Shown piece by piece: positions 44,673-63,152 of a DNA stretch of 64,000 nucleotides; position 1 is the first letter of the stretch, and every line of letters starts with the position of its first letter. The notes beneath the pieces were generated by a model, which did not search any database, had not been told where the DNA came from, and was given only the letters and a program-made list of their open reading frames with translations. The position numbers and the translations under genes were made by a program. The stretch lies in contig NZ_CP031311.1 in the NCBI RefSeq assembly GCF_004799685.1, forward strand, positions 1,054,001 to 1,118,000. Reading direction: 5' to 3'. Origin of the DNA: Halobellus limi. GTDB lineage: Archaea; Halobacteriota; Halobacteria; Halobacteriales; Haloferacaceae.

Positions 44673-45812
44673 CTACCACGACCCCGCTACGGCGCGTTGG
44701 TAGGCCCGCTCAGCCCGGTCGGCGACGGCATCCCAGTCGTACTGCTGGGCGCGGTTGAGGGGATCCGTCGGCGGTCGTCTCCCTCCCAAGGCGGCGTCGA
44801 GCGTCTCCGTGAGGGATTCGACCGTGGGATCGACGAGAAAGCCGGCGTCGCCGACGACTTCGTCGGCCGCGGAGTCGGGGTGGTCGGCCGCGATAACGGT
44901 GCAATCTGCGGCCATCGCCTCCGCGAAGGTGAGCCCGAAGCCCTCCCTCGTGCTGGGGGAGGCGAAGACGTCGGCGGCGCGCATCTGACCGAGGACGTCC
45001 TCGTAGTCGTCGAGGAAGCCGAGGAACTCCACGCGGTCGGCGTGGGTGAGTGCGTCGCGCTCGCGTTCGAGGCGGTCGCGCTCGGGGCCGTCGCCGACGA
45101 CGCCGAGCGTGACGTCGCGGTCGTCGGCGACCGCGTCGAAGGCGTCGAGGAGGAGGTCGACGTTCTTGTGTTCGACGAGCCGGCCGGCGAAGAGCACGTC
45201 GTAGCCCCGGTCGGGCAGCGGGGCGTTCCGGATCTGTCCGACGTCGATACCGTTCGGGACGACGTCGATCCGTTCTCTGTCGGGACCGATGGCCGCGAGT
45301 CGGTCGGCGGTGATCTCGGAGATCGCGATCGGGTGCTGTGGCGTACGGGCGGTGAGGTGTTCGGTCAGTTTGCCGAACGGGGCGAGTGCGCCGAGGTACT
45401 CCTCCCAGTATTCGCCCCAGACCTCGTGCCAGGTCGTGACCAGCGGCGTGTCCGTCCGGAGGCTCGCGAGTTCGGTGGCGAGGACGGGGAAGTACGGAAA
45501 GACGCTGGCGACGACGACGTCGTGTTCGTCTTCTCGGAGCCGGCGGCGGAGCGGCGGGACAGCTCGGACGGCGAAGTCGAGGGCCTCCGTGATGGAGCGG
45601 CGCTCGCCGGCGTAGAGTTCGGCCTCGGGGGCGACGGCACGGAGGGTGATGCCCTCGTGGGTGATCTCTTCGGGGCCGTCCCAGAAGTGGCGGCCGTAGA
45701 TCGTGACGTCGTGGCCCCTGTTCGTGAGTCGGGTGCCGATCTCGTGGATGCGCTTTTCCGCACCGCCGGTCACCCAAGGATAGACGACGTTGCTCACGAA
45801 GGCCACGCGCAT
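44673..45812 (-). CDS. GT4 family glycosyltransferase
   Basis: A 379-residue GT-B enzyme. N-terminal FVSNVVYPWVTGGAEKRIHE acceptor motif, GHDVTIYGRHFW, and C-terminal donor half with PNGIDVGQI, LLFAGRL-type strand (VLFAGRLVEHKNVDLLLDAF), VGVVGDGPERDRL and the E-x7-E motif FASPSTREGFGLTFAEAMAA. Uses a nucleotide sugar donor; acceptor unknown. First gene of the surface-glycan region. Confidence 0.93.
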   Translation of the reverse strand: MRVAFVSNVVYPWVTGGAEKRIHEIGTRLTNRGHDVTIYGRHFWDGPEEITHEGITLRAVAPEAELYAGERRSITEALDFAVRAVPPLRRRLREDEHDVVVASVFPYFPVLATELASLRTDTPLVTTWHEVWGEYWEEYLGALAPFGKLTEHLTARTPQHPIAISEITADRLAAIGPDRERIDVVPNGIDVGQIRNAPLPDRGYDVLFAGRLVEHKNVDLLLDAFDAVADDRDVTLGVVGDGPERDRLERERDALTHADRVEFLGFLDDYEDVLGQMRAADVFASPSTREGFGLTFAEAMAADCTVIAADHPDSAADEVVGDAGFLVDPTVESLTETLDAALGGRRPPTDPLNRAQQYDWDAVADRAERAYQRAVAGSW

Positions 45813-45992
45813 TGTTTTGAGTGGTAATGGACAGCGACAATGGTCTTTCGATGTGTCGTCGGACTGTAGATCGGCGTCTGCTCGCCGGCCTCGGAACGGA
45901 GCCGGCATCGAACGCGCCGATTCGAGAGTGGTCGACCGAGGGATGTCGCCTCCTGGTACGCGCGGCACTGCGCTGACCCGTCGGGGAGCGGG

Positions 45993-47266: not shown

Positions 47267-47701
47267 ATGGACGAGATGACGACGGAACGAGCCGTCACCT
47301 GGGTGTTGGCCGTGGCGCTCCTGGCGTCGCTCTTCGGCGTGGTGTTCTTCGCAGCGAATCCCCCCACGGTGACGGAGCCATTCACGGAGTTCTACATCCT
47401 GGGGCCGGACGGGAGCGCGACCGACTACCCGACGAACCTGTCCGTCGGCGAATCGGGGACGGTGATCGTGGGCGTGACGAACCACGAACACGAGGCCGTG
47501 AGCTACACGGTGGTGATGAAACTGGACAACGAGACGGTCGGAGAGCGACCAGTGCGGTTGGGAGACGAGGAGACCTGGGAGGGGGAGATGTCCTTCACCG
47601 TCGAGGAGCCGGGTCGGCAGCGGCTTCGGCTGGAGTTGTACCGGGGTGAGGTGTCGGGGGAGCCGTATCGGTCGTTACGGTTGTGGGTGCACGTTACGTA
47701 A
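47267..47701 (+). CDS. DUF1616-like membrane-anchored protein
   Basis: A 144-residue protein. An N-terminal helix (AVTWVLAVALLASLFGVVFF, about 10-29) anchors an Ig-like external domain: FTEFYILGPDGSATDYPTNL, TVIVGVTNHEHEAVSYTVVM and RLRLELYRGEVSGEPYRSL, which is the usual C-terminal domain of haloarchaeal DUF1616 proteins found in glycan clusters. Start ATG 47267. Its stop region overlaps the following convergent glycosyltransferase by 8 bp. Confidence 0.75.
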   Translation: MDEMTTERAVTWVLAVALLASLFGVVFFAANPPTVTEPFTEFYILGPDGSATDYPTNLSVGESGTVIVGVTNHEHEAVSYTVVMKLDNETVGERPVRLGDEETWEGEMSFTVEEPGRQRLRLELYRGEVSGEPYRSLRLWVHVT

Positions 47702-48668
47702 GATCTCGGTAGATATTCATCGTCTCTTCGGCGGCCCTCTCCCAGGAGAACTCCCACGCTCGTTCTCGCGCTCTCGTCGAGAGTGCTTTACGCTCGGTTT
47801 CGTCTTCGAGAAGTCGTTCGATGGCCTCGACGTGAGCGTCCGTATCGTGCGGATCACACAGGATAGCGGCGTCGCCGGCCACCTCCGGAACGGAGTAGAC
47901 GTCGGAGGCGACGACCGCACAGCCGGCCGCCATCGCTTCGAGGACCGGCAGGCCGAACCCCTCGTGGAGGGTCGGGAAGTAGAACACGGCGGCTCGCTCG
48001 TAGAGGTCGACGAGTTCGTCCTCGGGGACGTAGCCCCTGATTTCGACGTTCTCCGTTTCCGGTCGGTCCGGGATGTGCTCGTCCCACCCGCTGCCGGCGA
48101 TCACGAATCGACGATCGAGCCGTTCCGCGGCTTCGACGATCGCGGCGGGGTTCTTGCGCTTCGCCGCGAGGCTGACGTGGAGCACGAAGGGCTCGTCGTC
48201 CGTCGGTGTGGTCTCGTCGGCGCGGTATCGCGCGTCGACACCGTGGCGGACGACGTCGATCTTCGACTCCGGGAACTCTTTCCTCAGCGCCGCTTTGACG
48301 CTCTCGGAGATCGCGATGATTCGATCGCAGCTGTCGAAGAGCCACGTTTGCGTGAGGTGATTGAGCGGGTAGAGTCCGGGTCGGGCGGTGAGTTCCGGGC
48401 GATCGAGGAAGAAGAGGTCGTCGGTGGAGACGACGACGGGCGTGTCGGATCGGAGCATTCGGAACAGCGTGAGGTATTCGAACTCCGAGAGCGCCGCGCG
48501 GGAGTAGAAGTTCACCTCGAAGAGGTGGACGACGTCGGCCTCGCGCCAGTCGTCGACGGCGACGACGTCGCGGTCGGTGAGGGCATCGCGGAGCGAGGAC
48601 ATATAGATGTGTTCGGAGGCGTTGGTGTCGGTGAGAGTGAAGAAGTGAACGCGGAGGGGATCGGTCAT
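47694..48668 (-). CDS. GT4 family glycosyltransferase
   Basis: A 324-residue GT-B protein with donor motifs VVRHGVDARYRADETTP, LHVSLAAKRKNPAAIVEAAE, FYFPTLHEGFGLPVLEAMAA and GCAVVASDVYSVPEVAGDAA; the acceptor half is short. Ends overlap the DUF1616-like gene by 8 bp in convergent orientation. Confidence 0.9.
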   Translation of the reverse strand: MTDPLRVHFFTLTDTNASEHIYMSSLRDALTDRDVVAVDDWREADVVHLFEVNFYSRAALSEFEYLTLFRMLRSDTPVVVSTDDLFFLDRPELTARPGLYPLNHLTQTWLFDSCDRIIAISESVKAALRKEFPESKIDVVRHGVDARYRADETTPTDDEPFVLHVSLAAKRKNPAAIVEAAERLDRRFVIAGSGWDEHIPDRPETENVEIRGYVPEDELVDLYERAAVFYFPTLHEGFGLPVLEAMAAGCAVVASDVYSVPEVAGDAAILCDPHDTDAHVEAIERLLEDETERKALSTRARERAWEFSWERAAEETMNIYRDLT

Positions 48669-48675
48669 CGATGAA

Positions 48676-50034
48676 TCACTTATATCCGAGGTGTTCCAAA
48701 CGGTCTTCGATCTCGTCCGGCATTTCGTCTATCGAATCGTCGCTTTCGCCCGTGAAATCTCTGCGGTTCTCCCGCACTTCGTCGACTCGTTTTCGTAGCT
48801 CGGATACGCGCTCCGGGAGCCGTTCTCCCGTCTCGGGATCGATCGCTCGATCGCCATCCTTGTCGTGGATGAACATCGCGTCCTTCGTCCGGAGCATATA
48901 GTGGTCCCGATTCCACTCGGCCGGGATGTTGGCGAGGATACCCGTGGCGTCGGGCGAGTACTGACCGACTCCCGTGCTCTCGGCGTAGACGGCTCGGTCG
49001 TCGTCGAAGTCGTCCTCGAAGAGGTTGCGTCCGCGGATGAAGTCGTCCGTGTCGATCCCGGCGAGATCGAGGATCGTCTTGTGGATCTCGAGGATGCTCG
49101 TCACGGCGTCGATATCCCTCTCTGGGACTTCATTGCCGAGCGCGACGGCGGGGACGTGGACGAGCTCGGGCCAGATGCCGTACTCGTGTCCGCGGAAGCC
49201 GTGCTCGCCGAACATTTCGCCGTGATCGGAGATGACGAAGAGCGCGTCCCAGTCGACGCGATCGATCAGTTTCGGGAGTTCGTCGTTCAGGTAGCGGGCC
49301 GCACCCCTGTAGTTCTCCCAGTGGCGGGCGTGTTCCTCGTCTGTGACGGGATCCCTTCGGAGAGTGAGGTGGAAGGGTTGCGTGTCGAGTGGCTCCTCGT
49401 CGGCGTAGCCCTCGGGTGGTTCGTACGGGAAGTGTGCCGGCATCAGATTCGCGAAGAAAAAGAGATCATCCGGTGGGTTTTCCAGGTGTTCGTCAGCCCC
49501 GTCGTGGGCCCACGAGAGAGTGTTCGAGTCGTCTGCCACGTTCGACCGGAGGAACTCTACACCCGTGCGAAGAGTCCGGAGCGTCGGGGCGTCGCTTTCG
49601 ACGACGCGTTTGACCGCACGGGCGTAGCGAAGCGGACCGTCACCGATGGTCGAAAATAGCTCGTCCCAGTCGAAGTCGTCGGAGCCGGTGGGTCGCCCTT
49701 TGAGATTCGGTCCCCTGACTAACTCATCGAATCCACGACTGAAATTGAAGAAGGGATCGATGTGGACGTTGTTGCTAAACGCGACTGTGTGGTAGCCGGT
49801 GTTGGAGAGCCGTTCCGCCAGCGTCGGACGATCAGTCGTGAGATATCTGTTTTCGGAATGGGTACCGGTTTCAGTCGGGTAAAGACCTGTGAATAGAGAC
49901 GCGTGTGCAGGCGCAGTCCATCGTGAGGTAGAATGAAATGCGTTCAACGACGAAGTGGCGGAGTTGAGGTCCGTACACTCAGAACAGAAAGTATCGTAGC
50001 GTAGCGTGTCAAGTACAACGATGCCTATCTTCAC
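48676..50034 (-). CDS. Alkaline-phosphatase-superfamily (sulfatase-like) enzyme with Thr nucleophile
   Basis: A 452-residue protein from a GTG start at 50034. KIGIVVLDTLRYDTF holds the first metal-binding Asp (D9). The nucleophile position reads SRWTAPAHASLFTG: Thr40 where sulfatases carry Cys/Ser (CxPSR). SDHGEMFGEHGFRGHEYG (about 280-297) supplies more metal ligands. A Thr nucleophile is used by phosphoglycerol and phosphoethanolamine transferases of this superfamily, so a sugar-modifying group transferase is more likely than a formylglycine sulfatase. It sits 7 bp from the preceding GT4 gene. Confidence 0.85.
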   Translation of the reverse strand: MKIGIVVLDTLRYDTFCSECTDLNSATSSLNAFHSTSRWTAPAHASLFTGLYPTETGTHSENRYLTTDRPTLAERLSNTGYHTVAFSNNVHIDPFFNFSRGFDELVRGPNLKGRPTGSDDFDWDELFSTIGDGPLRYARAVKRVVESDAPTLRTLRTGVEFLRSNVADDSNTLSWAHDGADEHLENPPDDLFFFANLMPAHFPYEPPEGYADEEPLDTQPFHLTLRRDPVTDEEHARHWENYRGAARYLNDELPKLIDRVDWDALFVISDHGEMFGEHGFRGHEYGIWPELVHVPAVALGNEVPERDIDAVTSILEIHKTILDLAGIDTDDFIRGRNLFEDDFDDDRAVYAESTGVGQYSPDATGILANIPAEWNRDHYMLRTKDAMFIHDKDGDRAIDPETGERLPERVSELRKRVDEVRENRRDFTGESDDSIDEMPDEIEDRLEHLGYK

Positions 50035-50100
50035 TCGGACCACGTCCGTTGCGCTAACCTCATTTACAAATTCCCCGATATCGCAACGTCTCGGTTCCAA

Positions 50101-50116
50101 CTATCCGATTGGATAG
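50101..50116. promoter_or_regulatory. Palindrome CTATCC-GATT-GGATAG between divergent genes
   Basis: Perfect 6-base arms (50101-50106 and 50111-50116), in the 170-bp region between the divergently transcribed sulfatase-like gene and the GT4 gene. It may be an operator for one or both. Confidence 0.4.
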
Positions 50117-50207
50117 AAAAGCATTTCTATTTGATACACAGTTTACATTCAATCACAAGGAGGAGCGTGAACTACTATCGATTCACGCCGATCTAAAAAA
50201 GAAACCA

Positions 50208-51326
50208 ATGGATGTCGAACTAAACGTCGGCTGGGTATACCCCGCGATGGGACACTCGGTAAACGAGGAAAGCGCGAACTACGGACATCCGGCTCACCGG
50301 GGCTTCCAGCAGCACATCGATGCCGATCCGATTCTCTTGCCCGATGTCGATATTGGCCCATTTGCTGGGACGTTCGCGAAACCACTCGTGGAAGCTTGGC
50401 AGCTGGCCATTCCTGAGTACGACGTGTATATTTTGGAGAACGCGGAAGCAGTATACGCCGCTCCGTTCATCCGGCGAGCGTATCCAGACGCGACAATCAT
50501 TCTCCTCGCTGCACACCGCGTGTTCGGCTTGGAGAGCTACGACTTCGCTAGCGATCCGTTCCCGAAATCAGTATTTCGCCGAGGAGAACGATACCTCGAC
50601 CAGAGACTCATTCGGAGGTTCATACGAAGTTACGTTGACGGTGTACTCGCCGTGTCCGACCTAGTCAAATCGACTGTCGAGCAGTTCGCCCCCGGCCTGC
50701 CGGTCGAGGTCGTGTACCCGTACGTTCAGCCGGATATGGTTGAGGCTCTAGACGGAGTTACGCCGAATCTGGGATCCAATCACGCGGTCACCGTCTGTGA
50801 AGGTCGCGACCACAAGGGCGTAGATCTACTGGTCGAGGCATGGTCGCAGGTTCGCGAGCAGATTCCGGATGCGACACTCCACATTGTTGGTAGTGGTCAT
50901 CCTGAGAAGTACGAATCAACGCCCGGCGTCACGGTTCGAGGGTTCGTGGATGATCTCGGCGACGAGTATGGGAAGGCATCATTGTATGTTCACCCGGCGC
51001 GCGCTGATGCCTTCGGTGTGACGGTTACGGAAGCGATGCGTGCCGGCGTCGTCCCGCTCGTCACACGTACTACTGGAGCGTACCCTATCGTTCGAGAGGT
51101 GTCGCCAGATATGGTCGTCGAACTGAACGTCGAGTCGTTAGCAGATGGGGTTATAAGATACTTTGAGCAAAGCGATAACGTGCGACAACAGTGGTCCAAG
51201 CAGGCTATTAAGGGGTCTAAACCATTCGTGGAGGACAAAATGATTAGAAAATTCAAAAACTGGCTTCGAACATTACTTGAAAAAGATAATTATCGTATAC
51301 AGTTCAAGAATTTACCGAAACAATAA
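50208..51326 (+). CDS. GT4 family glycosyltransferase
   Basis: A 372-residue GT-B protein (MDVELNVGWVYPAMGHSVNE). Donor half: VTVCEGRDHKGVDLLVEAWS, LHIVGSGHPEKYESTPGV, and the E-x7-E region LYVHPARADAFGVTVTEAMR. The start ATG at 50208 is chosen because an AT-rich box (ATCTAAAAAAG) lies directly upstream and homologous sequence starts here; a TTG at 50109 would add 33 doubtful residues. Codon use drifts AT-rich towards the 3' end, where the AT-rich island begins. Confidence 0.87.
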   Translation: MDVELNVGWVYPAMGHSVNEESANYGHPAHRGFQQHIDADPILLPDVDIGPFAGTFAKPLVEAWQLAIPEYDVYILENAEAVYAAPFIRRAYPDATIILLAAHRVFGLESYDFASDPFPKSVFRRGERYLDQRLIRRFIRSYVDGVLAVSDLVKSTVEQFAPGLPVEVVYPYVQPDMVEALDGVTPNLGSNHAVTVCEGRDHKGVDLLVEAWSQVREQIPDATLHIVGSGHPEKYESTPGVTVRGFVDDLGDEYGKASLYVHPARADAFGVTVTEAMRAGVVPLVTRTTGAYPIVREVSPDMVVELNVESLADGVIRYFEQSDNVRQQWSKQAIKGSKPFVEDKMIRKFKNWLRTLLEKDNYRIQFKNLPKQ

Positions 51327-51426
51327 TTTATTAGAGATTAATGGTATGTTATATCAATATTTCCTATTAAATATTCTATATTATTTTAATTCTGTCTAGT
51401 ATTCTTAGAAAATATTTCTGTTGGAA

Positions 51427-52427
51427 CGCTCTTCTGTAGGAGATTGTTGATACTGGCGAGCTGTCGCTGTGGAGTCGAAGAGGACAAGGGCACCGCGTCA
51501 GCGGTGCCCGACACGGATGATTCCGCTAGATGCGTTTGGGTCGGAATCGGTCGCAGCGGACCTGCTCCAACAGGTTCGCTGGCGTGACGGTGTGACTTGT
51601 CCCCGCTGCCGTTCTGACCGAACGGTCAGAAACGGCAGCTATGGGAAGTTTCAGCGGTATCTCTGTAAGGATTGCGGCCGCACATTCAACGATAAAACCG
51701 ACACGATCTTCGCTCATTCGAAGATCGCGCTCCGCAAGTGGCTGTTTTCGACCTACGCCTTTCTCCGGTTTAACACCAGCCTCAGGCAGTTATAGTGCGA
51801 AATCGAGGTCACCTACAAAACGATCCATAGGCGTGTCGAGCGCTTCACCGAAGCACTCGACGCGCCGTCACTCAATCTCGTTGGCCCGGTCGAAATAGAC
51901 GAATTCTACGTCTCTGCCGGCCTCAAAGGCCGCGAGCGCGACCGCTGGTCGCGCTCTCGCGGTCTCTCCCGACGTGGACGCGGAACGTATCACCAAGACA
52001 AACCGCCAGTTTTCGTTCTCGTAGATCGTGGCACCGAGCAACGATACATCGTGCCAGCGAAATCCGCAGATGAATCGACGATTCGGCTCCTGCTGGCTGA
52101 CCGCCAGCAGGAGCCTCTCACCGTCTATACCGACGGATTTTGCGCGTACGAGCCCCTTGCGGAAGATGAGAATTTCGACCGTGAATACGTCGTTCATAGA
52201 GACGGTGAGTACACCGATGACACGGTCCACGTGAACACGTGCGAGAGCCACGCGTCGCTGGCGCGACGGTGGCTCTCGCCGCATCGAGGCATCTCAAAAG
52301 ATCGTCTCACACAGTATCTTAGAGCGTTCCAACTCAGACGAGAACTCTATCGCAAACCCGGACGAAAAGCGCTCAAACACGCCATCAAAGCCACTCTCTG
52401 AAATCAACAATGTGCTCCACAAGAGCG
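51427..52427. mobile_element. IS1595-type insertion sequence, about 1001 bp, defective
   Basis: Imperfect 25-bp terminal inverted repeats: left 51427-51451 (CGCTCTTCTGTAGGAGATTG...) and right 52403-52427, 21 of 25 bases matching. The single gene encodes an IS1595-type (zinc-ribbon plus DDE) transposase that is interrupted by an in-frame TAG. The 8-bp flanks (TGTTGGAA left, ATGAATGT right) do not match, so no target duplication remains. The right end runs into a truncated sulfatase-like gene. Confidence 0.85.
51517..52401 (+). pseudogene. IS1595 family transposase, nonsense mutated
   Basis: A transposase of about 294 codons with one in-frame TAG at 51793-51795. N-terminal zinc ribbon: CPRCRSDRTVRNGSYGKFQR with a second pair in YLCKDCGRTF. 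Then ALRKWLFSTYAFLRFNTSLR, stop, CEIEVTYKTIHRRVERFTEA, and the catalytic core PVEIDEFYVSAGLKGRERDR, VYTDGFCAYEPL and HVNTCESHASLARRWLSPHR. The reading frame is the same before and after the stop, so a single base change is sufficient. ATG at 51517 is likelier than the GTG at 51469. Confidence 0.85.
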
Positions 52428-52892
52428 ATGAATGTTTACTGCCAATTGGCGTACTCCAGGCTTCTTCCCGATTATCGGGCCAAATGAATCAGCGATTTTA
52501 GAATACACCCTTGAACGCGTTGATGACGGGACAGTATGATCAGTTTCCTCATCCATTTCAGTTGTGAAGTCCTCGTAATGGTCGAAATCTGCAACTGTGT
52601 CATATCGCGTCGAGATCGTTGTATTAGAATGGAATGCTGCCGTAGTCAATCCGAAGCTTTGTACTGGTGTTGCAATTGTCGGACATTCTTCAACTGCCTC
52701 ACCAGGAACATACTGGGAAGTCAAGAGAGAAGGAAGAGATTGCGCAGTATGTGGGCCGTTTGCAATCGTTGGATCCACTTGGGTTGCATTAGCCAACCAA
52801 TCATCTATAACCGACATAGTATTTCGCCGGTATCCATATTGAGAAAGATGGTCGGCTCGGAGAGCATCAACCGTAATTATGATCGTCGACAT
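52404..52892 (-). pseudogene. Sulfatase-like gene truncated by the IS (N-terminal 155 residues remain)
   Basis: The minus-strand frame starts at ATG 52892 (MSTIIITVDALRADHLSQYG), carrying the first metal Asp (D9), and IANGPHTAQSLPSLLTSQY with Thr49 at the nucleophile position. The protein should run to about 450 residues, but at 52427 the frame enters the IS1595 inverted repeat and stops there (RSCGAHC, TGA at 52404-52406). No continuation is visible on the far side of the IS, so the 3' end was lost, presumably in an IS-linked deletion. Confidence 0.8.
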
Positions 52893-53056
52893 TATTAGTA
52901 GATAGAGGTGTCTTCATCATTTAATAAGTTGCTCATCCACAGGAGACTATTGACACGGTTACGGGATGCTCAATAGGGAGTTACCTTTTGATTGTGTGCG
53001 ACCCGTCAGATCCAGTCGGATTTAAATACTTAGAACGTGACCGGTGAACACGACTG

Positions 53057-54490
53057 ATGGCTCTGAATATAGTCTGCGTTTCTATTGATAGCCTTCGAGG
53101 TGACTTTTGTTCATTTATTGAAAGTGACGAGGAGACAACACCGTTTTTATCCAAACTCTCGAACAATGCAATGGTTTACGAATCAGCAATCACGCCCTCG
53201 ATATGGACACTCCCTGTCCATACCTCGATTTTCACCGGCCACTTTCCACCCGAACATGGTGTTCTAACCGGCAACGAAGGGTTAGGTGATCATCCGACTT
53301 TTGCAGAACAATTACAGGATGCTAATTATACAACTAAGGCGTTTTATTCAAACGGTTGGCTAGATACCGCAGATATCCTACGGGGATTCGACACCAGTTG
53401 GAGTTCTCAGCCCTCTAGTCAGTCTGAAGAAACAGTTAAGAAAAAAGTTTCAAATGGAATAAAATCTGTCTCCCCAAGACTTCAAGAAGCCGTGAAAAAA
53501 AGCTATTCATATTATGAGGGGTCTCGGGCAAGAGAGGCTTATGATCTCTACAATTTGTGGCGATCCTCAGAAACATCCCTGACTGGAAAGGATACGGATG
53601 GAGAACGAGATGTGAATTCGGCAATAGATGAGGTGAAAAATATCACAGAGCCATTTTGTTGGTTCCTACATCTTAATGAAGCACATTGGCTGTATAAACC
53701 ACCAAACCCTCACCAGACTGCGTTTACTGATCGTTCAACCCCAGCACTGATAAAAAATGCAGTGTATTGGCAGAACCGTGTCTATGGATCTAGACCGAAC
53801 CGTCTCAAGACTGTTGCCGACGAGATCTCTCCCCCTGCGCGCGAAGTTGAAACGTTCCGAAATCTCTACCGAGGGGGTATCCGATACTGCGATAGTCTCG
53901 TACAGAAATTGGTAGAGAGTTTAAAATCGGCTGGTGTCTGGGATGACACTGTATTCATTCTTTTCGGTGACCATGGCGATAGCTTCGGTGAAAACGGTGT
54001 GTTTGGACATCACTTCTCAATGGACGAATCGCTCATTCGGGTTCCGTTACTAATTCATGACCCCACGGGTCAGATCTCTTCTGGTCGAGTCTCTAAGCCT
54101 GTTTCTCTAGTTGATATTTATCCGACCGTTTTATCGCTTGCTGATGCTGATATACCGGAAAATAGTGGATTTGATCTTACTAAAGAGACACGTGATGAGG
54201 CTTTCTCTTATTATGATATCAGTAAACATGATTACTATACAAACGATTACGGGGTCAGTAAGGATGATCTGCCACCACCAATACAACATCTCGTTTGGCG
54301 ATCTCAATCGGAAAAGGCTATTCACTACCCCATTAGCGACGAATATCATATTGTCGGGGCAAATAAAAAAGAACTCCGGAACTTACTACAGGAGCACAAA
54401 GCTGGATTCAACTTATTGGAAAATAGTGAGAATGAACTGAGCAAAAATGTTCGAGACAGACTAGAAAAAATAGGTTATCTGCAAGAATAA
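53057..54490 (+). CDS. Alkaline-phosphatase-superfamily (sulfatase-like) enzyme with Thr nucleophile
   Basis: A 477-residue protein. LNIVCVSIDSLRGDF (D11), then TPSIWTLPVHTSIFTGHFPP with Thr51 instead of Cys, and FILFGDHGDSFGENGVFGHH (about 295-315) for metal binding, followed by HFSMDESLIRVPLLIHDP. Same architecture as the gene at 48676-50034, so probably a group transferase on a cell-surface sugar. DNA is distinctly AT-rich compared with the 15-45 kb region, with codons such as AAA, ATA and TTA, a sign of recent transfer. It is 9 bp from the following FkbM gene. Confidence 0.85.
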   Translation: MALNIVCVSIDSLRGDFCSFIESDEETTPFLSKLSNNAMVYESAITPSIWTLPVHTSIFTGHFPPEHGVLTGNEGLGDHPTFAEQLQDANYTTKAFYSNGWLDTADILRGFDTSWSSQPSSQSEETVKKKVSNGIKSVSPRLQEAVKKSYSYYEGSRAREAYDLYNLWRSSETSLTGKDTDGERDVNSAIDEVKNITEPFCWFLHLNEAHWLYKPPNPHQTAFTDRSTPALIKNAVYWQNRVYGSRPNRLKTVADEISPPAREVETFRNLYRGGIRYCDSLVQKLVESLKSAGVWDDTVFILFGDHGDSFGENGVFGHHFSMDESLIRVPLLIHDPTGQISSGRVSKPVSLVDIYPTVLSLADADIPENSGFDLTKETRDEAFSYYDISKHDYYTNDYGVSKDDLPPPIQHLVWRSQSEKAIHYPISDEYHIVGANKKELRNLLQEHKAGFNLLENSENELSKNVRDRLEKIGYLQE

Positions 54491-54499
54491 TACAAGCAC

Positions 54500-55429
54500 A
54501 TGACACTAATGGAACTCCTCAATAAGATATATACGGCGGTTGGTATGATTCGAAACGGGCAGACAAAGAGGTTAGTAGCTATATTATCAGATAAGTATAG
54601 AGAATGGGTAGATATACCGCAAAACAATTCACGATATGTTTTCTTGTTCCCTATTATAGTGCTAGAAGAGATTCACATTTTACTTGATGAATGTTCGCTT
54701 GCTTATCCACTCCATGATGGGGGGTGGCAGATAATCGAATTGTCTGATTTTTCTCGTGGACGGCAGATTCTAGTACTAACTAGAAGTGTTATAGATACAC
54801 GACATGGATCACCTAAACACACCAAACTGATGGAAGATATATATTCGTTTGATGGGTTTGTTACAGTTGAACAAGACGATATAATAGTTGATGTCGGTGC
54901 ATATATTGGTACGCTATCTTTCTGCTTTGCTGAAACATCAAGCATCTTCATTTCGATTGACCCGATGGCTGCAGTAAGTGATGAGCTAAAATATAATACA
55001 CAATCATATTCAAATGTTATTACTGTGCCGAAAGCAGCATGGACAAAAAAAACAGAATTGGAAATTAACCAGTCGTCGCTCCCGAACGAGAATTCTGTTC
55101 TCCAACCCGATCAGCGCGATTCAAATAGCTCTTTTACTGTTGATGCTGATACTGTACCAAATATTGTCAAAAACCTTGGAATTGAGCATATTGACTATCT
55201 TAAAATCGAAGCTGAGGGGGTCGAAATGGAGATTCTAGAAGCAGCACTCGCAGATGAGATCGAGATTGAGAAAATCGCAGTAGATGCTAGTGCTGAACGA
55301 GACGGTAGTGGTGTTATTGATGAAGTGGGTGCTATTCTTGAGTCCTACAATTATGATTGGCGAATTAATGAGGAAGCTCCTGAATGGGGTTCAGAAATTG
55401 TCTTCGCAAAACAAGAATCTAGTAAATGA
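54500..55429 (+). CDS. FkbM family methyltransferase
   Basis: A 309-residue SAM methyltransferase. The SAM motif is DIIVDVGAYIGTLSFCFAET (about 130-149), then IFISIDPMAAVSDELKYN, and the FkbM signature DYLKIEAEGVEMEILEAALA (about 233-252). FkbM enzymes O-methylate sugars or polyketides; in this cluster a methylated glycan is likely. AT-rich like its neighbour and probably in the same transcript with the sulfatase-like gene. Confidence 0.88.
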   Translation: MTLMELLNKIYTAVGMIRNGQTKRLVAILSDKYREWVDIPQNNSRYVFLFPIIVLEEIHILLDECSLAYPLHDGGWQIIELSDFSRGRQILVLTRSVIDTRHGSPKHTKLMEDIYSFDGFVTVEQDDIIVDVGAYIGTLSFCFAETSSIFISIDPMAAVSDELKYNTQSYSNVITVPKAAWTKKTELEINQSSLPNENSVLQPDQRDSNSSFTVDADTVPNIVKNLGIEHIDYLKIEAEGVEMEILEAALADEIEIEKIAVDASAERDGSGVIDEVGAILESYNYDWRINEEAPEWGSEIVFAKQESSK

Positions 55430-55549
55430 CGGCAGAAGTACATACACTCTGACAAAACCGCTCAATTAGATTTCCATTTTGTCGATTCAAAATACCTGTT
55501 TCATATTCAATAGTGGTCTCTCATTCTACGCAAAGTCAAGAACGCTTGG

Positions 55550-56539
55550 TTATGATTTTCGAACCAATGGCTCGTACCACTCTTGGTTCTCTCTGTACCA
55601 ATCGACAAATTTCTTGACCCCCTCACGAATTGTATATTCTGGACTGTAGCCTATGAGTTCATCAGCCTTCGATACAGCTGCGTGAGTATGTTCAGCATCA
55701 GCGTCGTATCGTTCAGCATACTCTAACTCTAACTCTGGAGCCAACTGATCACGGACTTCCGTAGCTAGCGCCCGAATCTCAATATTATCTGATGAACCAA
55801 TATTTAGGACCTCTCCATCTGCTTCGTCTGACTCTAACAGCGTCAGATTCGCGTCAACAATATCTTCGATGTACGTGAAGTCGCGTGTTTGCGTCCCATC
55901 CCCGTATACTACCGGTGATTCCCCGTTCATACATCGGGATACGAAGTTCGAAATAGCCATATTCGGTCGCATCCGCGGGCCGTACACCGTGAAATATCGT
56001 AGCGATACCGTCGAAATGTCGTATACCTCGTGATAGGCGGCTGCGTAACGCTCGGCAGCAAGTTTCGATGCCCCGTAAGGGCTCACAGGGAGTGTCGGAT
56101 CAGTTTCTTCGAACGGAACATACTCACCACGCCCACCGTATACCGACGAAGAAGATGCCACTACAATCCGCTCAATATCTGTTTCGCGGGCCGCATCTAG
56201 AATATTTAGTGTACCATCAACATTCACCTCATCGTACACTCGTGGCTCCGCAACGCTGTCGCGGACACCAGCACGCGCTGCTTGGTGGAAGACGATGTCT
56301 GTTTTACTGACGAGGTCGTCAACTAAATTACTATTCCGAACATCACCTTCGACAAACGCATAGGTACACCCTTCAGCCTCGGCAATTGATTGGTGGACAT
56401 CCAGCGTGTGTTCCTTAATCTTGAGATCATAGTAAGGGTGCATCACATCAAGAACCGTAACATCGTGGCCGTCTCTAAGGAATTGCTCGACGAGATGACC
56501 GCCGATGAAGCCAGCACCACCCGTGACGAGTATTTGCAT
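55550..56539 (-). CDS. UDP-glucose 4-epimerase-like SDR
   Basis: A 329-residue extended SDR. The NAD motif is ILVTGGAGFIGGHLVEQFLR, catalytic YxxxK is in SPYGASKLAAERYAAAYHEV, and VSLRYFTVYGPRMRPNMAIS follows. ATG 56539 is preferred, since the 23 upstream codons do not match the family. It supplies a sugar nucleotide for the local glycosyltransferases; exact product unknown. Confidence 0.92.
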   Translation of the reverse strand: MQILVTGGAGFIGGHLVEQFLRDGHDVTVLDVMHPYYDLKIKEHTLDVHQSIAEAEGCTYAFVEGDVRNSNLVDDLVSKTDIVFHQAARAGVRDSVAEPRVYDEVNVDGTLNILDAARETDIERIVVASSSSVYGGRGEYVPFEETDPTLPVSPYGASKLAAERYAAAYHEVYDISTVSLRYFTVYGPRMRPNMAISNFVSRCMNGESPVVYGDGTQTRDFTYIEDIVDANLTLLESDEADGEVLNIGSSDNIEIRALATEVRDQLAPELELEYAERYDADAEHTHAAVSKADELIGYSPEYTIREGVKKFVDWYRENQEWYEPLVRKS

Positions 56540-56726
56540 TACCCATCCTGTTCTCAGCGGTTCTAAAAGAGCTATTGGATTCATGCCATTAAGTATACTA
56601 GGTGGCAAATTGAATCAGACTGCCCTGTAGAATCCGCATAAAGCGAAGAGATAGCGTCGCTCTTAAAATGATGACGAGACTGAGAGAAGAGATGGAGCGC
56701 ATGCGCGAACAGATAGTGATCCAAAA

Positions 56727-56933
56727 TTAATTTTCGCGTGTGATTACTGACTTGACCAAGCTCCCTATGAAGAATCCAGGCTTCCCAAATATTGGGGCTA
56801 TCAATAACTCTAGATATTCCCCGCTCACTCCGGGGTGAATATGAAATGCTCGTGAGAAAGACCGTATAGCTGAAAAGGACCAGACGTGATCTCTCAAATG
56901 TGCATACCCCAGTTTCCACGCCAGACTCTCCAC
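56727..56933 (-). pseudogene. C-terminal remnant of a GT2 glycosyltransferase
   Basis: A 68-residue fragment (LGYAHLRDHVWSFSAIRSFS, then ELLIAPIFGKPGFFIGSLVK) that aligns with the last 60 residues of the GT2 proteins at 57036-57941 and 61644-62561: compare RDHVWSFSAI with RDHIWSLRAI, and IFGKPG with FFGRPG. A stop sits directly upstream, and the glycosyltransferase core is missing. Together with its position it shows that an older GT2 gene once occupied this spot. The rest of 56540-57035 holds no other gene. Confidence 0.75.
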
Positions 56934-57035
56934 CTAAGACAGACCCTTACGATGAAACGGCAGATTGTTATGAGGATCTCAACAGAGACGGAAAATTAAT
57001 ATCCTGATAGTGCAGTAACATCCAAGAGAACAACC

Positions 57036-57941
57036 ATGGAAGAACTGGTATCTATCATCATTACAACGCACTATCGTAATAAACCACTCCAGAACGCAAT
57101 TAAAAGTGCGTTGAATCAAGAATATCAGCCAATTGAAGTTATAGTCATAGATGATTCGGGGGAGCGCTACGCCGAGCCAGTAGTACAAAAATATGATGTC
57201 CAATACGTCGCTCATAAAGAAAATATGGGACAGGTATCGGGTTGGCAAACCGGCCTCAGAGTGGCTTCAGGGGACTATATTCAATTCCTTGATGACGACG
57301 ATATACTTAAGGAACAAAAAATATCGGAGCAAGTGAAGATTCTTAGGGATCAGCCAGACACTGGAGTTGCGTATTGTGGTGTTGAACGTCAGGATGGGTT
57401 CGTGAATCTTCCTCCAGAAAATGCTCGTGGTGATGTCGAGGAACTTATGTTACAGATTAATTTTTCTCCGGCTCAAACATCAACTCTGTTGATGGAGCGA
57501 AAGTGTTTAGATCGCATCTCACCTCTCCCAGATTATCAGGCAGGAACTGACATCCCACTCCGTATCGAACTTGCTCAGATTACTAAATTCGACTTCGTGA
57601 ATGAACCACTCGTGAAACGCCGCGTAGAATTTGGTACACAGGCCACATCGCTGGCAGCCATTGATGCACGAGAACGAATGCTTAACGACTATGAAGATTT
57701 ATATGAAAACTATCCCGAGAGAGTTCGTCAAGAAGCTATAGCAAATGTATCGCGATTCCAAGGGCTCGTCTATCTTAATCATAGTATCTGGTCACGGCAT
57801 GCGATAGCTTGCTTCTGGCGGGAGATCCGGACGGATCCCAATACTGATACAGTCTCAGTCGGTCGATTCCTCGCCTCGATTTTTGGATCACCCGGTATTG
57901 ATATCTCGGAAAAGTGCTTTGATTTTTACACAAGTAGGTAG
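57036..57941 (+). CDS. GT2 family glycosyltransferase
   Basis: A 301-residue GT-A enzyme. VSIIITTHYRNKPLQNAIKS, VIVIDDSGERYAEPV, and the DxD-like YIQFLDDDDILKEQKISEQV (about 86-105), then DYQAGTDIPLRIELAQITKF and a C-terminal helical end with IFGSPGID. AT-rich gene on the plus strand. A new sugar is likely added by it in the local glycan. Confidence 0.9.
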   Translation: MEELVSIIITTHYRNKPLQNAIKSALNQEYQPIEVIVIDDSGERYAEPVVQKYDVQYVAHKENMGQVSGWQTGLRVASGDYIQFLDDDDILKEQKISEQVKILRDQPDTGVAYCGVERQDGFVNLPPENARGDVEELMLQINFSPAQTSTLLMERKCLDRISPLPDYQAGTDIPLRIELAQITKFDFVNEPLVKRRVEFGTQATSLAAIDARERMLNDYEDLYENYPERVRQEAIANVSRFQGLVYLNHSIWSRHAIACFWREIRTDPNTDTVSVGRFLASIFGSPGIDISEKCFDFYTSR

Positions 57942-58103
57942 ATTTTCATTACTGTTATTTTCTCACGCATACAATGGAACTAACGATGGCCGAGTGCCCG
58001 AAGTTGCTCTTCTACTCTTTTTCAGACTGTTTAACGGACTTGTGTTCAGCAGGCATCAATTCCCCAGGGCCTTCCGCGGTTGTCTCAATCCAAGGAACCT
58101 TAT

Positions 58104-58110
58104 GTACAAC
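58104..58110. repeat. Left target-site duplication (GTACAAC) of the IS5-type element
   Basis: GTACAAC at 58104-58110 directly precedes the left inverted repeat and is repeated at 59051-59057 directly after the right one. Confidence 0.85.
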
Positions 58111-59050: not shown

Positions 59051-59057
59051 GTACAAC
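59051..59057. repeat. Right target-site duplication (GTACAAC)
   Basis: Identical to 58104-58110; see the IS5-type element. Confidence 0.85.
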
Positions 59058-59239
59058 AGGATGTTGAAGACCAGTCCGATGATCCCACAGGAACCGCTTA
59101 CAAAATGCGTGGCCTTGATCTGCCGTGATAGCTGCCTTCGTTGCATCAATGTTTTCTAGCAATACAGGAACATCATCAGAAATCAAGTCATCAAGAATGA
59201 AACAACACTACCTAAATCCCGGAAAAATATCTTCTGATA

Positions 59240-60772
59240 ATGACTGAAAACAGAGACGAACAATCTACAGGTGATTCGCTTGCCACAGTCCTCTCGGGTG
59301 GCGCGCTCGTCTCCGCTGGCAAGGTTCTTGCGTTAGGATTCGGGTTTTTTACGCAGATCGCGATGGCTCGTCTCTTGACGGAGGCAGCCTACGGGAATGT
59401 CGTTTTAGCGTTAGCCGTCGTGAACATCGCCGGACTCGTCGCTAAACTTGGCCTCGACGACGGCGTCATGCGAGAGTATCCACATCACGAGGATGATCCT
59501 GCCGAGGCCCATGGTGTCGTTCGTGCAAGCACAGTTATAACAGTAACTTCAGGGCTCGTCACCGCGATTGTCCTATTTCTCGCTGCACCTACTATTGCAC
59601 GCGTGGTCTTCGACGATGCATCACTCATTCCACTGTTCCGTATCGGTTCGATTGCGATTCCGTTCATCACGACGAGCAGCGTTGCAGTGTCGCTAGCGCG
59701 TGGAGCTCGTGACGCTCGAGTGCAGGCATACGTACGGCAGATTTTCCAGCCCGCGGCGCGTCTGCTGTTCGTTGGGGGCCTTCTCCTCGCAGGGTTCAAC
59801 GCGGTCGGTGCAATTAGTGGACAAATCGCAGCTATCGTGTTAGCTGCTCTTGCCGCATTCTATATGGCACGACGGTCGTTGCCGTCGTTCGACGTTTCAC
59901 CGAACCCAATGTATCGTTCGGTACTTGCGTTCTCACTACCTTTGATCGCGGTCCAGGGTATGGGATTTCTCAATTCGAACGTGGATGTCTATATGGTCGG
60001 GTACTTTATGAACTCATCTTCACTGGGTGTTTACAATATCTCACTTCAGCTGGGGAATATCGTCAATTCTATTCTTGGTACTACGGGGTTTCTCCTTCCG
60101 CCTATGCTGACCCGTCTCCAGCAGCGCGGACAGAATACTGAGATGCTCCGTACGTATCAGGTTGTCACAAAGTGGATGGTCGTTCTCATTATACCCGTAT
60201 TCATCGTTCTCTTTTTCGCCCCTCGATTGGTTATCGGGCTGTTCTTCGGTGAGTCGTACACCCGTGGTACGTTAGCATTGCGAATTCTTCTTGCCGGTAA
60301 ATTCATCACTATTATTATGGGACTGAACAGCAGCGCTCTCATCGCACTTGGAAAGAACCGAGTCGTCTCGTATATCGTATTCTGCGAGACGGCGGTAAAC
60401 GTAGCGATCAATTTCATCCTCATCCCAGTTATTGGGTTCGAAGGTGCCGCGATCGGGATGACAATCAGCACAATCATTGGCGACGCACTGGGAGTGGCAA
60501 TTCTCTACCGTCGGTTCGGACTTCATCCGTTCACTAGGAGTGTTCTATCTCCGGTAGCTGCAATTGGGGTCGTTAGCACAGTTGGATACGGAACTCTTTG
60601 GCTACTTGGCCTTCCAACGTACTTGACAGTGGGACTAGTCGGCATAGCGTACTTGCCGATTATCGCAATTCTCGCACCCGAACCCGAAGATGAGAAATTA
60701 CTAACTCAAGTCGAAGATCAAACGGGATATGATCTTGAGGTTGTTAGAGATGTGGTGAGCTCTTTCAGATAA
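59240..60772 (+). CDS. Oligosaccharide flippase (Wzx/polysaccharide transporter family)
   Basis: A 510-residue MATE/MOP-superfamily protein with about 12-14 hydrophobic helices (VSAGKVLALGFGFFTQIAMA, LGVYNISLQLGNIVNSILG and ILLAGKFITIIMGLNSSALI). It should flip lipid-linked oligosaccharides across the membrane so that glycans can be attached to surface proteins. The 'ALGKNRVVSYIVFCETAVNV' loop is family-like. GC content is intermediate. An N-terminal acidic tail of 10-20 residues precedes the first helix. Confidence 0.92.
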   Translation: MTENRDEQSTGDSLATVLSGGALVSAGKVLALGFGFFTQIAMARLLTEAAYGNVVLALAVVNIAGLVAKLGLDDGVMREYPHHEDDPAEAHGVVRASTVITVTSGLVTAIVLFLAAPTIARVVFDDASLIPLFRIGSIAIPFITTSSVAVSLARGARDARVQAYVRQIFQPAARLLFVGGLLLAGFNAVGAISGQIAAIVLAALAAFYMARRSLPSFDVSPNPMYRSVLAFSLPLIAVQGMGFLNSNVDVYMVGYFMNSSSLGVYNISLQLGNIVNSILGTTGFLLPPMLTRLQQRGQNTEMLRTYQVVTKWMVVLIIPVFIVLFFAPRLVIGLFFGESYTRGTLALRILLAGKFITIIMGLNSSALIALGKNRVVSYIVFCETAVNVAINFILIPVIGFEGAAIGMTISTIIGDALGVAILYRRFGLHPFTRSVLSPVAAIGVVSTVGYGTLWLLGLPTYLTVGLVGIAYLPIIAILAPEPEDEKLLTQVEDQTGYDLEVVRDVVSSFR

Positions 60773-60804
60773 CCGAATTGAAAAGAGGGGCTGGGTTTCA
60801 TAGG

Positions 60805-61569
60805 TTAGATTTGTGAAGAAGCACTGACGGTACCTGCTGCCCCCCGCACACGCTGTATTTCAGCTTCATGCGACAGCCGTGACGAAATTATTTGTTCGGC
60901 TAGTTCCGTGAAATTCGTAGTATTTTCTGTCTCTTGATCTCTTTCAGAACTAAGTACGTATTCTGTACCATTCTTTGACCTTTCAGAATCGACTGTTGAC
61001 CAGTACTTCCTCTCAGTAGTTCGGACCGCTATCTGATTCGGCCGGAACGTACGACTGAGTGTGTACCTCGATTCATGATCCGTTGGGTCGAAGTCATCCT
61101 TCGCGATACTCACGATTATGTCATAGATTGAGGTGAGTGAGACGGGACCCGTGATCTCGTCACTGGCATCAGCATCTCTTACGACGAGCGGAACGTGAAC
61201 GTTCTCCTCGAAAAACGTCCCCTGATGTCCCCACTCGCCGTGATCCAATGGACCGAATCCCTCTCCGTGATCTGAGTGGACGATCAACGACGTGTCTGAC
61301 GACACGGTCTCAGACAGCCAACCGATAAATTCGTCCGCGTCCTCGATTGCGTCCTCGTATAGTTCCATCATCGCCGTGGGATCTGGAGATAGCGGACCAT
61401 CAGTCCCGGATCAGTAGCGAACGTTGTTCGTGACCATCCGAAGCCAGCTGCTTCGCCGATGTTCTGCGTGCGGTAAGTACGGGGTGTGCGGTTCGAGAAG
61501 GAATATCCAGAGGAAGTAGGGTTCTGAAGCGTCGTTCAACCACGAAGATAAGTCTGACTGATATGATCT
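60805..61569 (-). pseudogene. Sulfatase-like gene, C-terminal part, with in-frame TGA
   Basis: The minus-strand frame from 61569 reads SDLSSWLNDASEPYFLWIFL, LEPHTPYLPHAEHRRSSWLR, then hits TGA at 61411-61413, and continues SGTDGPLSPDPTAMMELYED, IVHSDHGEGFGPLDHGEWGH, NVHVPLVVRDADASDEITGP to the stop at 60805. The 'SDHGEGFG...GH' motif marks an alkaline-phosphatase-superfamily member. The N-terminal Asp/nucleophile half is missing and frames before 61569 are shifted. A protein restarting at ATG 61371 would lack the catalytic core. Confidence 0.8.
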
Positions 61570-61643
61570 TCAGGGTTGAGCGATTCGATCCTGCCCGCAA
61601 CGCGGCGGTCGAATGGTGTCTAGATGGTTTCTTCAGCTGCGTT

Positions 61644-62561
61644 TCACCAGATTTTCCCCTCATTTGTTTCGTCAAGGATGTATTTCGAGTATATCTGACG
61701 AGCCATATCGCGTCCGGGCCTGCCGAAGAACGCCGCAATCGCGTATCCGGTTGTTGCAATTGACGGTGAGTTTTGCGCTGCACATAGGCCGTACCAGATT
61801 GCTCGCAGTGACCATATGTGGTCTCGGAACTCTGCTTGTGCTGCTAAAAGGTTCGTTGCGGCTGTAGCACGGCGATACGCTTCTGGATGTTCTTGATAGA
61901 GGTCGCGGTACTCTGTGATTGTTTTTCGGCGGTTCTCCACGATCTCTTTTTCCCCTCCTACTCCTGCCTCTCCCGGCTGCCGTTTAGCAACAACCTCATT
62001 CACGAATTTATATTCTGCAAATTGTGCCAATTCGATATTGACTGCTATATCATCGCTTGGGAGTGTCTCCATCCTAGGTATCCTCTTCAGGGCTTCTGCC
62101 GAAATTAGCATAGTTGATGGGATACACGGTGCCATCTCGAATGCAAGTGCTTGCGGCAGTACATCTTCCTGTACCTCAGGGTTAGGTTGAAGTATACGTC
62201 CGTCTGGCCACTGGATTGCTCCATATACGACTTCTGCTCCAGTTTCTTCTGCAGCCTCAACTTGCGATTCGATAGCAGATTCTGTTAGCGTATCATCGTC
62301 ATCTAAGAAGTGGATATACTTGCCATCAGCCTCGTCAATTCCGAGTTGACGGCACCCTGCGATACCGGGATCTGGGGTTGGTGAGAGATAGGTGGCTCCG
62401 AAATCTTCAGCAATATGTTGTGCGTTCCCATCAGCACCGTCTACGACGAATATTTCGACATTCTCTTCTGAGACTGTTTGGTTTTTAACACTCTCTAGGG
62501 CTCCTTCGAGTGATTCATTCCGTCTAAATGTTGGGATGATAACCGAAATTCTGGATATCAT
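61644..62561 (-). CDS. GT2 family glycosyltransferase
   Basis: A 305-residue GT-A protein. ISVIIPTFRRNESLEGALES, VDGADGNAQHIAEDFGATY, the DxD-like YIHFLDDDDTLTESAIESQV and a C-terminal helical tail AIAAFFGRPGRDMARQIYSK similar to the GT2 at 57036. The ATG at 62561 has a good GAGGTGA site 5 bases before it; the GTG at 62570 is inside that site. The gene replaces the middle of an older sulfatase-like gene according to my reading of the flanks. Confidence 0.9.
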   Translation of the reverse strand: MISRISVIIPTFRRNESLEGALESVKNQTVSEENVEIFVVDGADGNAQHIAEDFGATYLSPTPDPGIAGCRQLGIDEADGKYIHFLDDDDTLTESAIESQVEAAEETGAEVVYGAIQWPDGRILQPNPEVQEDVLPQALAFEMAPCIPSTMLISAEALKRIPRMETLPSDDIAVNIELAQFAEYKFVNEVVAKRQPGEAGVGGEKEIVENRRKTITEYRDLYQEHPEAYRRATAATNLLAAQAEFRDHIWSLRAIWYGLCAAQNSPSIATTGYAIAAFFGRPGRDMARQIYSKYILDETNEGKIW

Positions 62562-62566
62562 CTCTG

Positions 62567-63082
62567 TCACCTCACACTTTGTGATTGGCTGTTATATCGC
62601 CACGTGTGTTCACCCTCGCCGGGCGGCTGGACGCCCTCGAGGGCTGAGAGGCTGTCCCGCCCCTTCACACAGTTCGACCAGAACGAGGCGCCGGTGGCGT
62701 AGTCGATGTCGTCGGGGTCGACCAGCTCGAGGAAGTCGGCGCGGGTGGCGGAACCCTCGCATTGAAGATAGGCGTACAGCCAGGCAATCGCCCGTCGACG
62801 GCGCTCGTAGGTCTCCCCGGAACCGAGAAAGTCGAGGTCGTCGGGCACGTCCGCCGACTCGATCTCGGCGATCGCCTCGCCGCTCTCCTCTGGTTCGGCG
62901 TCGACATCGCCGCGCTGCTCGCGGAGGCGGTTGAGTACGTCGTTGAATGACTCGCCGGGGCGTTGCTTCTGTTTGGTGAACCACCGCCAGTTCGGCGTGA
63001 AACTATCTCCAGTACTCAAGCCAGTCTTGTCTGCCCGAAGGCTGTCGATGGTTACAAGAACGATATTGGAGTGTTCAGCCAT
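62567..63082 (-). CDS. Chimeric ORF: sulfatase-like N-terminus fused to a GC-rich antitoxin-like segment
   Basis: 171 residues. Residues 1-31 (MAEHSNIVLVTIDSLRADKT, then SFTPN) are the opening of an alkaline-phosphatase-superfamily protein. From about residue 32 the sequence changes to QKQRPGESFNDVLNRLREQR, in the style of VapB-like antitoxins, then to YERRRRAIAWLYAYLQCEGS, SFWSNCVKGRDSLSALEGVQ and GEGEHTWRY, like a haloarchaeal small regulatory protein. The base composition changes abruptly at about 62989 (AT-rich before, GC-rich to about 62590). Whether it is expressed is unclear. Confidence 0.6.
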   Translation of the reverse strand: MAEHSNIVLVTIDSLRADKTGLSTGDSFTPNWRWFTKQKQRPGESFNDVLNRLREQRGDVDAEPEESGEAIAEIESADVPDDLDFLGSGETYERRRRAIAWLYAYLQCEGSATRADFLELVDPDDIDYATGASFWSNCVKGRDSLSALEGVQPPGEGEHTWRYNSQSQSVR

Positions 63083-63152
63083 TTTATTTGAATAGTAGAT
63101 CAATCGGTTGATAACATTAAGCCAGTAATGATTCACCGGACTGATTTCGATA

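Follow-up and report, generated by a model that had tools for sequence, protein, structure and literature searches.

What does a sulfatase-like protein do when the residue at its nucleophile position is a threonine rather than a cysteine? This question is raised by a glycan gene cluster of Halobellus limi, contained in a 64,000-nucleotide stretch of contig NZ_CP031311.1 (positions 1,054,001 to 1,118,000; hereafter the window), which encodes two intact proteins of this kind, P0001 and P0002, together with remnants of others. An earlier interpretation made from the DNA letters (the sequence-only reading) had noted the threonine and had suggested that such proteins are phosphoglycerol or phosphoethanolamine transferases; the analysis reported here retained the first point and not the second. 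We propose that P0001 and P0002 are metal-dependent enzymes of the cytoplasm that have the S1 sulfatase fold and work as transferases, attaching an ester group, most likely sulfate, to a sugar of the surface glycan made by this cluster, and we give this proposal about an even chance of being correct.

Threonine at the Nucleophile Position

P0001 (48676..50034, minus strand, 452 amino acids; PF00884, E = 5.7e-22) and P0002 (53057..54490, plus strand, 477 amino acids; PF00884, E = 3.8e-39) are intact Thr-type proteins, and P0003 (52404..52892, minus strand, 162 amino acids) is the N-terminal remnant of a third copy, matching PF00884 over profile positions 4-137 only (E = 2.9e-10). Their nucleophile regions read RWTAPAHASLFTG, IWTLPVHTSIFTG and PHTAQSLPSLLTS, respectively, with P0003 representing a T-x-x-S-x-P subtype (GPHTAQSLPSLLTS). 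P0001 starts with GTG, an alternative longer TTG frame extending to 50100, and carries the motifs DTLRYD, WTAPAH, AHFPY, DHGE and GH and the C-terminus RLEHLGYK. P0002 contains D11, W50-T51-L-P-V-H55, H210, D305-H306 and H318, and ends in RLEKIGYLQE.

HMMER alignments place the threonine on the catalytic cysteine of solved sulfatases. In the alignment to the choline-sulfatase 6fny, STSRWTAPAHASL stands opposite STSPLCAPARASF, and in that of P0001 to choline sulfatase, STSRWTAPAHASLFTG stands opposite STSPLCAPARASFMAG, so that Thr occupies the column of the catalytic Cys and His that of the signature Arg. A profile of 100 sequences put the same Thr column on the Cys of SpAS2 (4upl), again with His on the signature Arg. 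Thus, the claim that both intact copies and the truncated copy at 52404 carry Thr at this site was borne out, and the Cys/Ser-x-Pro-x-Arg that the sequence-only reading had named as counting against it was absent at the aligned position. As the formylglycine signature, Cys/Ser-x-Pro/Ala-x-Arg, is replaced by T-x-P-x-H in both intact proteins, the motif supports the view that P0001 and P0002 would not be formylglycine sulfatases and that the annotation “sulfatase” would be misleading, as had been argued.

Among 100 diverse homologues, D11, H210, D305 and H306 never vary and H318 hardly varies. T51, D305 and H306 of P0002 match the pattern of Thr nucleophile and Asp-His metal ligands of LtaS and EptA; however, this pattern is not decisive for membership in that group because it is common to many members of the superfamily. 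An apparent difference in the residue after DHG, Lys in most Cys types and His in most Thr types, was dropped because the alignment register was off by one residue.

Fold and Localization

The structure of P0002 was modelled with AlphaFold2 from 100 homologues (predicted local distance difference test, pLDDT, 86.6; predicted template modelling score 0.86), and an earlier five-sequence model (pLDDT 56) was not used. Residues 1-458 of the model, including the C-terminal subdomain, superimpose on the S1 sulfatase fold with Z scores of 32-39 (maximum 38.7) and root-mean-square deviations of 2.3-4.0 in VIA-align, and both Foldseek and VIA-align matched almost the entire chain to S1 sulfatases and phosphonate monoester hydrolases, with 6hhm (Z 37.2) and 5g2u (Z 36.5) near the top. 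Profile matches to the same two groups ranged from 1e-71 to 1e-50. In the predicted structure, Thr51 caps the helix formed by residues 51-60, and in sulfatases formylglycine likewise caps a helix. The structure prediction that had been suggested therefore returned a sulfatase-superfamily fold, with S1 sulfatases and phosphonate monoester hydrolases, and not the anticipated phospho-group transferases, as its nearest relatives.

P0002 shares its full-length fold with the S1 formylglycine sulfatases (S1_7, 6hhm; S1_25, 6hr5; BT1596, 5g2u; 6fny), and in both P0001 and P0002 the motif order and the aligned Asp, Asp and His surrounding the metal site agree with those of this group. The two proteins differ from these enzymes in having Thr for Cys, His for the signature Arg and an additional LxxLGY tail, and in belonging to a genome in which no match to the formylglycine-generating enzyme (FGE; PF03781) was found. 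The highest 19-residue hydropathy averages, 0.89 for P0001 and 1.17 for P0002, give no membrane segment, and the first strand of the catalytic domain of P0002 is formed by residues 4-10; the lack of a membrane-grade hydrophobic stretch and a strand beginning at residue 4 indicate that the proteins are probably cytoplasmic.

A Widespread Thr/Ser Class in Haloarchaea

The threonine is not a peculiarity of this locus. The H. limi genome has 12 PF00884 matches, including two fragments and one phosphoglycerate mutase, and all but one of the remaining matches are of the Thr type (WTAPAH, WTLPVH in two proteins, ATPISF, WTPFSF, PTYFSF, PTIASM and ATPESM); besides P0001 and P0002 in the window, two intact Thr-type copies lie just past its edge (contig C1:1120865-1121776 and C1:1122112-1123092). 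The single Cys-type protein has the classic CMPSR (C1:1196211-1197215), and it sits in a genome without a match to FGE or a convincing one to the anaerobic sulfatase-maturating enzyme (anSME). The one good match to the sulfatase maturase model TIGR03942, a radical S-adenosylmethionine (SAM) protein, was below the cut-off and was rejected as an anSME on account of its higher scores to the peptide maturases DarW/DarE. A radical SAM/SPASM protein closest to DarW/DarE (C1:2942527-2943576) stands beside a gene for 157 amino acids, with a nearby frame ending in EFNNCCPVV, and this haloarchaeal locus possibly serves the modification of a ribosomal peptide.

To place these observations in a wider frame, 100 PF00884 genes from 38 haloarchaeal genomes were picked at random from among the listed matches with higher scores, leaving out the genome of the window and those fetched earlier. 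The nucleophile column held Thr in 66, Ser in 13 and Cys in 17 (18 with a gap-shifted CSPSR), and three sequences were misaligned. As Thr was the commonest residue in this sample, the idea that it is unique to the locus was rejected. Whereas 74 of 79 Thr/Ser proteins carry the LxxLGY tail, all 18 Cys proteins lack it (Fisher p = 2e-15, a value that overstates the evidence because related sequences are not independent). In a tree built without the active-site columns, the three nucleophile states need six changes, versus about 30 with shuffled labels. Relatives with WT-x-P-x-H also occur in Nitrospirota, Acidobacteriota, Planctomycetota, Spirochaetota, Gemmatimonadota and Thermoplasmata, in a set chosen by motif-bearing patterns and hence not a fair sample of these groups.

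The residue itself is already known: according to SulfAtlas (2016), 30 of the 59 PF00884 seed sequences carry Thr, and sulfatase function cannot be assumed for them (PMC5066984). Like P0001 and P0002, these sequences have Thr in place of the catalytic Cys/Ser and were judged unable to form formylglycine; they were left uncharacterised there, with no function given (PMC5066984). Thr at this position is the norm of a large family. The literature searched yielded no description of the split between Thr/Ser and Cys classes with the tail, and no paper combining haloarchaea, sulfatase and formylglycine. A shorter group of 310-430 amino acids (loci L082, L084, L085, L088 and L095) has HYxQPH, the LGY tail and an altered nucleophile region, and lies near the Thr/Ser types.

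Comparison with Agl30 and Agl31

Two haloarchaeal proteins offer a functional point of reference. Agl30 (VNG1056C) and Agl31 (VNG1057C) of Halobacterium salinarum were described in 2025 as N-glycan sulfotransferases; their deletion strongly lowers N-glycan sulfation and their expression in Haloferax adds sulfation (PMC11980604). Like P0001 and P0002, they are haloarchaeal alkaline-phosphatase/sulfatase-like proteins encoded inside a glycan assembly cluster, and their best DALI matches, 5G2U and 6HHM (PMC11980604), are the nearest solved folds of P0002 as well. Agl30 differs in being membrane-associated (PMC11980604), and the passages of that report that were searched mention no residue of the active site. 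Translation of the primers given in the report yields the C-termini HLEDLGYL (VNG1056C), LEELGYT (VNG1057C) and KELGYIE (VNG1063H) (PMC11980604), that is, LxxLGY-type tails in Agl30 and Agl31; since the tail is typical of the Thr/Ser class, their nucleophile is likely, though not proven, to be Thr or Ser. The published Agl30/31 primer had no match in 242 genomes of the class, in 26 genomes of presumed Halobacteriaceae or in the fetched loci. By analogy, P0001 and P0002 may do the same job as Agl30 and Agl31. The sequence-only reading had proposed that the glycan is modified with a phospho-group or other ester; a transferase role of this kind is plausible, and the phospho part does not fit the sulfate added by Agl30 and Agl31 (PMC11980604).

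If P0001 and P0002 are sulfotransferases, D11, D305 and H306 would hold a metal ion, and Thr51, at the N-terminus of its helix, would attack an activated donor at its sulfur (or phosphorus) to form an enzyme ester, assisted by H210 and H318. In a formylglycine enzyme, the sulfated hydrate sheds sulfate by hemiacetal elimination, resulting in hydrolysis. A Thr or Ser ester lacks this elimination route, so it would be relieved only by an incoming hydroxyl, as a transferase needs; sulfatases in which Cys is replaced by Ser are known to trap the sulfate ester. The acceptor would be a sugar of the lipid-linked glycan, modified before the flippase exports it, and the lack of a membrane segment fits action on a cytoplasmic dolichol-linked glycan. 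We infer the donor, the site of metal binding and the formation of a covalent ester on Thr.

Several points weigh against this proposal. Neither ATP sulfurylase (PF01747) nor APS kinase was matched in the H. limi genome, which leaves no clear sulfate donor. The nucleophile of Agl30 and Agl31 is read from their tails, and P0001 and P0002 are presumed, not demonstrated, orthologues of them. VNG1063H, which probably belongs to the shorter HYxQPH group (VHYFQPH from its primer), has the tail, and no role in sulfation was found for it (PMC11980604), so that the tail alone does not fix the function. A gain of 80 Da in Haloferax is not by itself proof of sulfate because the masses of sulfate and phosphate are nearly equal. 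Finally, P0001 and P0002 are only 24% identical and could differ in function.

Regarding the donor, the genome does contain a CysD-like protein below the cut-off (C1:2136653-2137198) and a DndC. APS kinase was missing from 37 of 39 haloarchaeal genomes and found in two, yet sulfated glycans are known from at least one haloarchaeon; the absence of the kinase here is therefore not specific evidence against sulfation. The CysD-like protein ends in ERLRDLGYM, a tail like that of the Thr-type proteins, which could be due to chance; CysD proteins may also end in GYF. DndC (C1:2646102-2646779), with a DndD-like neighbour, represents a DNA phosphorothioation system.

Alternative Functions

As the genome offers no clear sulfate donor, phospho-group transfer and hydrolysis stay live rivals of sulfotransfer. 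Phospho-group transferases would use Thr to move a phosphoglycerol- or phosphoethanolamine-like group from a phospholipid or nucleotide to the glycan, in the manner of LtaS and EptA, both of which use Thr, and their donor supply would pose no problem. LtaS, EptA/MCR and PbgA/YejM belong to the same superfamily as P0001 and P0002 and share the Asp-His metal ligands, and P0003 has a weak match to a phosphoethanolamine transferase model (0.0039) and a T-x-x-S-x-P that resembles the motif of EptA. However, in sequence comparisons LtaS-type structures (at best 1.4e-9) and EptA (2e-4) matched far more weakly than S1 sulfatases and phosphonate monoester hydrolases did, and the N-terminal multi-pass membrane domain of the LtaS/EptA type is absent from P0001 and P0002. 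The best 50 VIA-align rows included YejM/PbgA and neither LtaS nor EptA, which does not exclude the latter two. In addition, sulfate is the group attached by the likely haloarchaeal relatives that have been tested (PMC11980604). The argument that Thr points to a phosphoglycerol or phosphoethanolamine transferase thus found no support, and we regard phospho-group transfer as less likely than sulfotransfer for P0001 and P0002 and, taken alone, as improbable.

Alternatively, the proteins might be phosphodiesterases or phosphonate or phosphomonoester hydrolases serving glycan editing or recycling, with Thr used as in NPP and PafA, the Thr-nucleophile hydrolases of the superfamily. The phosphonate monoester hydrolases (S1_0; 2vqr, 4uph and 4upk) are among the nearest structures and profile matches, although they differ in forming formylglycine from Cys, and the phosphodiesterase family PF01663 gave a secondary match (2.1e-13). 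A cluster for glycan biosynthesis offers no obvious place for a cytoplasmic hydrolase, and several adjacent copies would better suit the decoration of different sugars, so we consider this explanation unlikely. A third possibility is that the proteins are true sulfatases that function in the absence of formylglycine, or else inactive paralogues retained by chance within a variable island. This would agree with the sulfatase fold and overall similarity and with the two or three remnants by which copies are seen to decay here, but the strong conservation of catalytic residues across phyla and the trapping of sulfate esters known for Cys-to-Ser sulfatases, which makes hydrolytic turnover unlikely, render this highly improbable.

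The Glycan Cluster and Its Variable Island

P0001 and P0002 are surrounded by five glycosyltransferases, an epimerase, an FkbM methyltransferase and a flippase. A GT4-type glycosyltransferase (47694..48668, minus strand; PF00534, 1.7e-30) lies 7 bases from P0001 on the same strand, and an FkbM-type methyltransferase (54500..55429, plus strand; PF05050, 1.2e-7; TIGR01444, 2.5e-19) lies 9 bases downstream of P0002. The other glycosyltransferases are of the GT4/GT1 type (44673..45968, minus strand; PF00534, 1.3e-30), the GT4 type (50109..51326, plus strand; PF13692, 1.7e-21) and family 2 (57036..57941, plus strand, PF00535, 4.2e-26; 61644..62570, minus strand, PF00535, 4.9e-23). An NAD-dependent nucleotide-sugar epimerase/dehydratase (55550..56608, minus strand; PF01370, 2.4e-65) and a Wzx-like polysaccharide/oligosaccharide flippase (59240..60772, plus strand; PF13440, 4.5e-28; PF01943, 2.5e-23) complete the set. 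Glycosyltransferase neighbours were found at 16 of 65 related loci versus none of 20 control stretches (p = 0.018), a modest enrichment in which the controls were haloarchaeal only and the test set included bacteria. Most of the widespread WTLPVH paralogues have no glycosyltransferase nearby, suggesting that action on glycans need not be common to all Thr-type proteins.

Beyond the three copies of the sequence-only reading, the window contains one more and possibly a second. The first is a C-terminal remnant (HSDHGEGFGPLDHGEWGHQG; 60805..61371, minus strand; PF00884, E = 9.5e-7, profile 203-279) with an in-frame TGA within its whole-genome match. The other is a possible N-terminal remnant recognised in translation (MAEHSNIVLVTIDSLRAD...; 63040..63093, minus strand), joined to unrelated sequence in the minus-strand frame 62567-63136, which as a whole had no family match. 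The truncation of P0003 adjoins a transposase remnant, and the transposase-like frames at 51469-52401 abut it.

The part of the window from 50000 to 64000 is probably an acquired variable island. Over the glycan cluster, its GC content drops from about 68% to 41-53%, and transposase-like frames (51469-52401 and 58182-59018) and several gene remnants are present.

Implications

A more tentative extension, which we consider possible yet rather doubtful, is that most haloarchaeal “sulfatases” may be formylglycine-free sulfotransferases, in which a Thr/Ser sulfo-enzyme is relieved only by a sugar hydroxyl. The donor would then not be 3'-phosphoadenosine 5'-phosphosulfate made by APS kinase, because this kinase is missing from nearly all haloarchaeal genomes. 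If this is true, about four-fifths of the sampled haloarchaeal Sulfatase-family genes would be misnamed, their products adding groups and not removing sulfate. The exchange of formylglycine for Thr would offer a simple chemical reason for transferase activity on a sulfatase fold, and the mechanism and donor of Agl30 and Agl31 would become testable by a single point mutation and a single in vitro assay.

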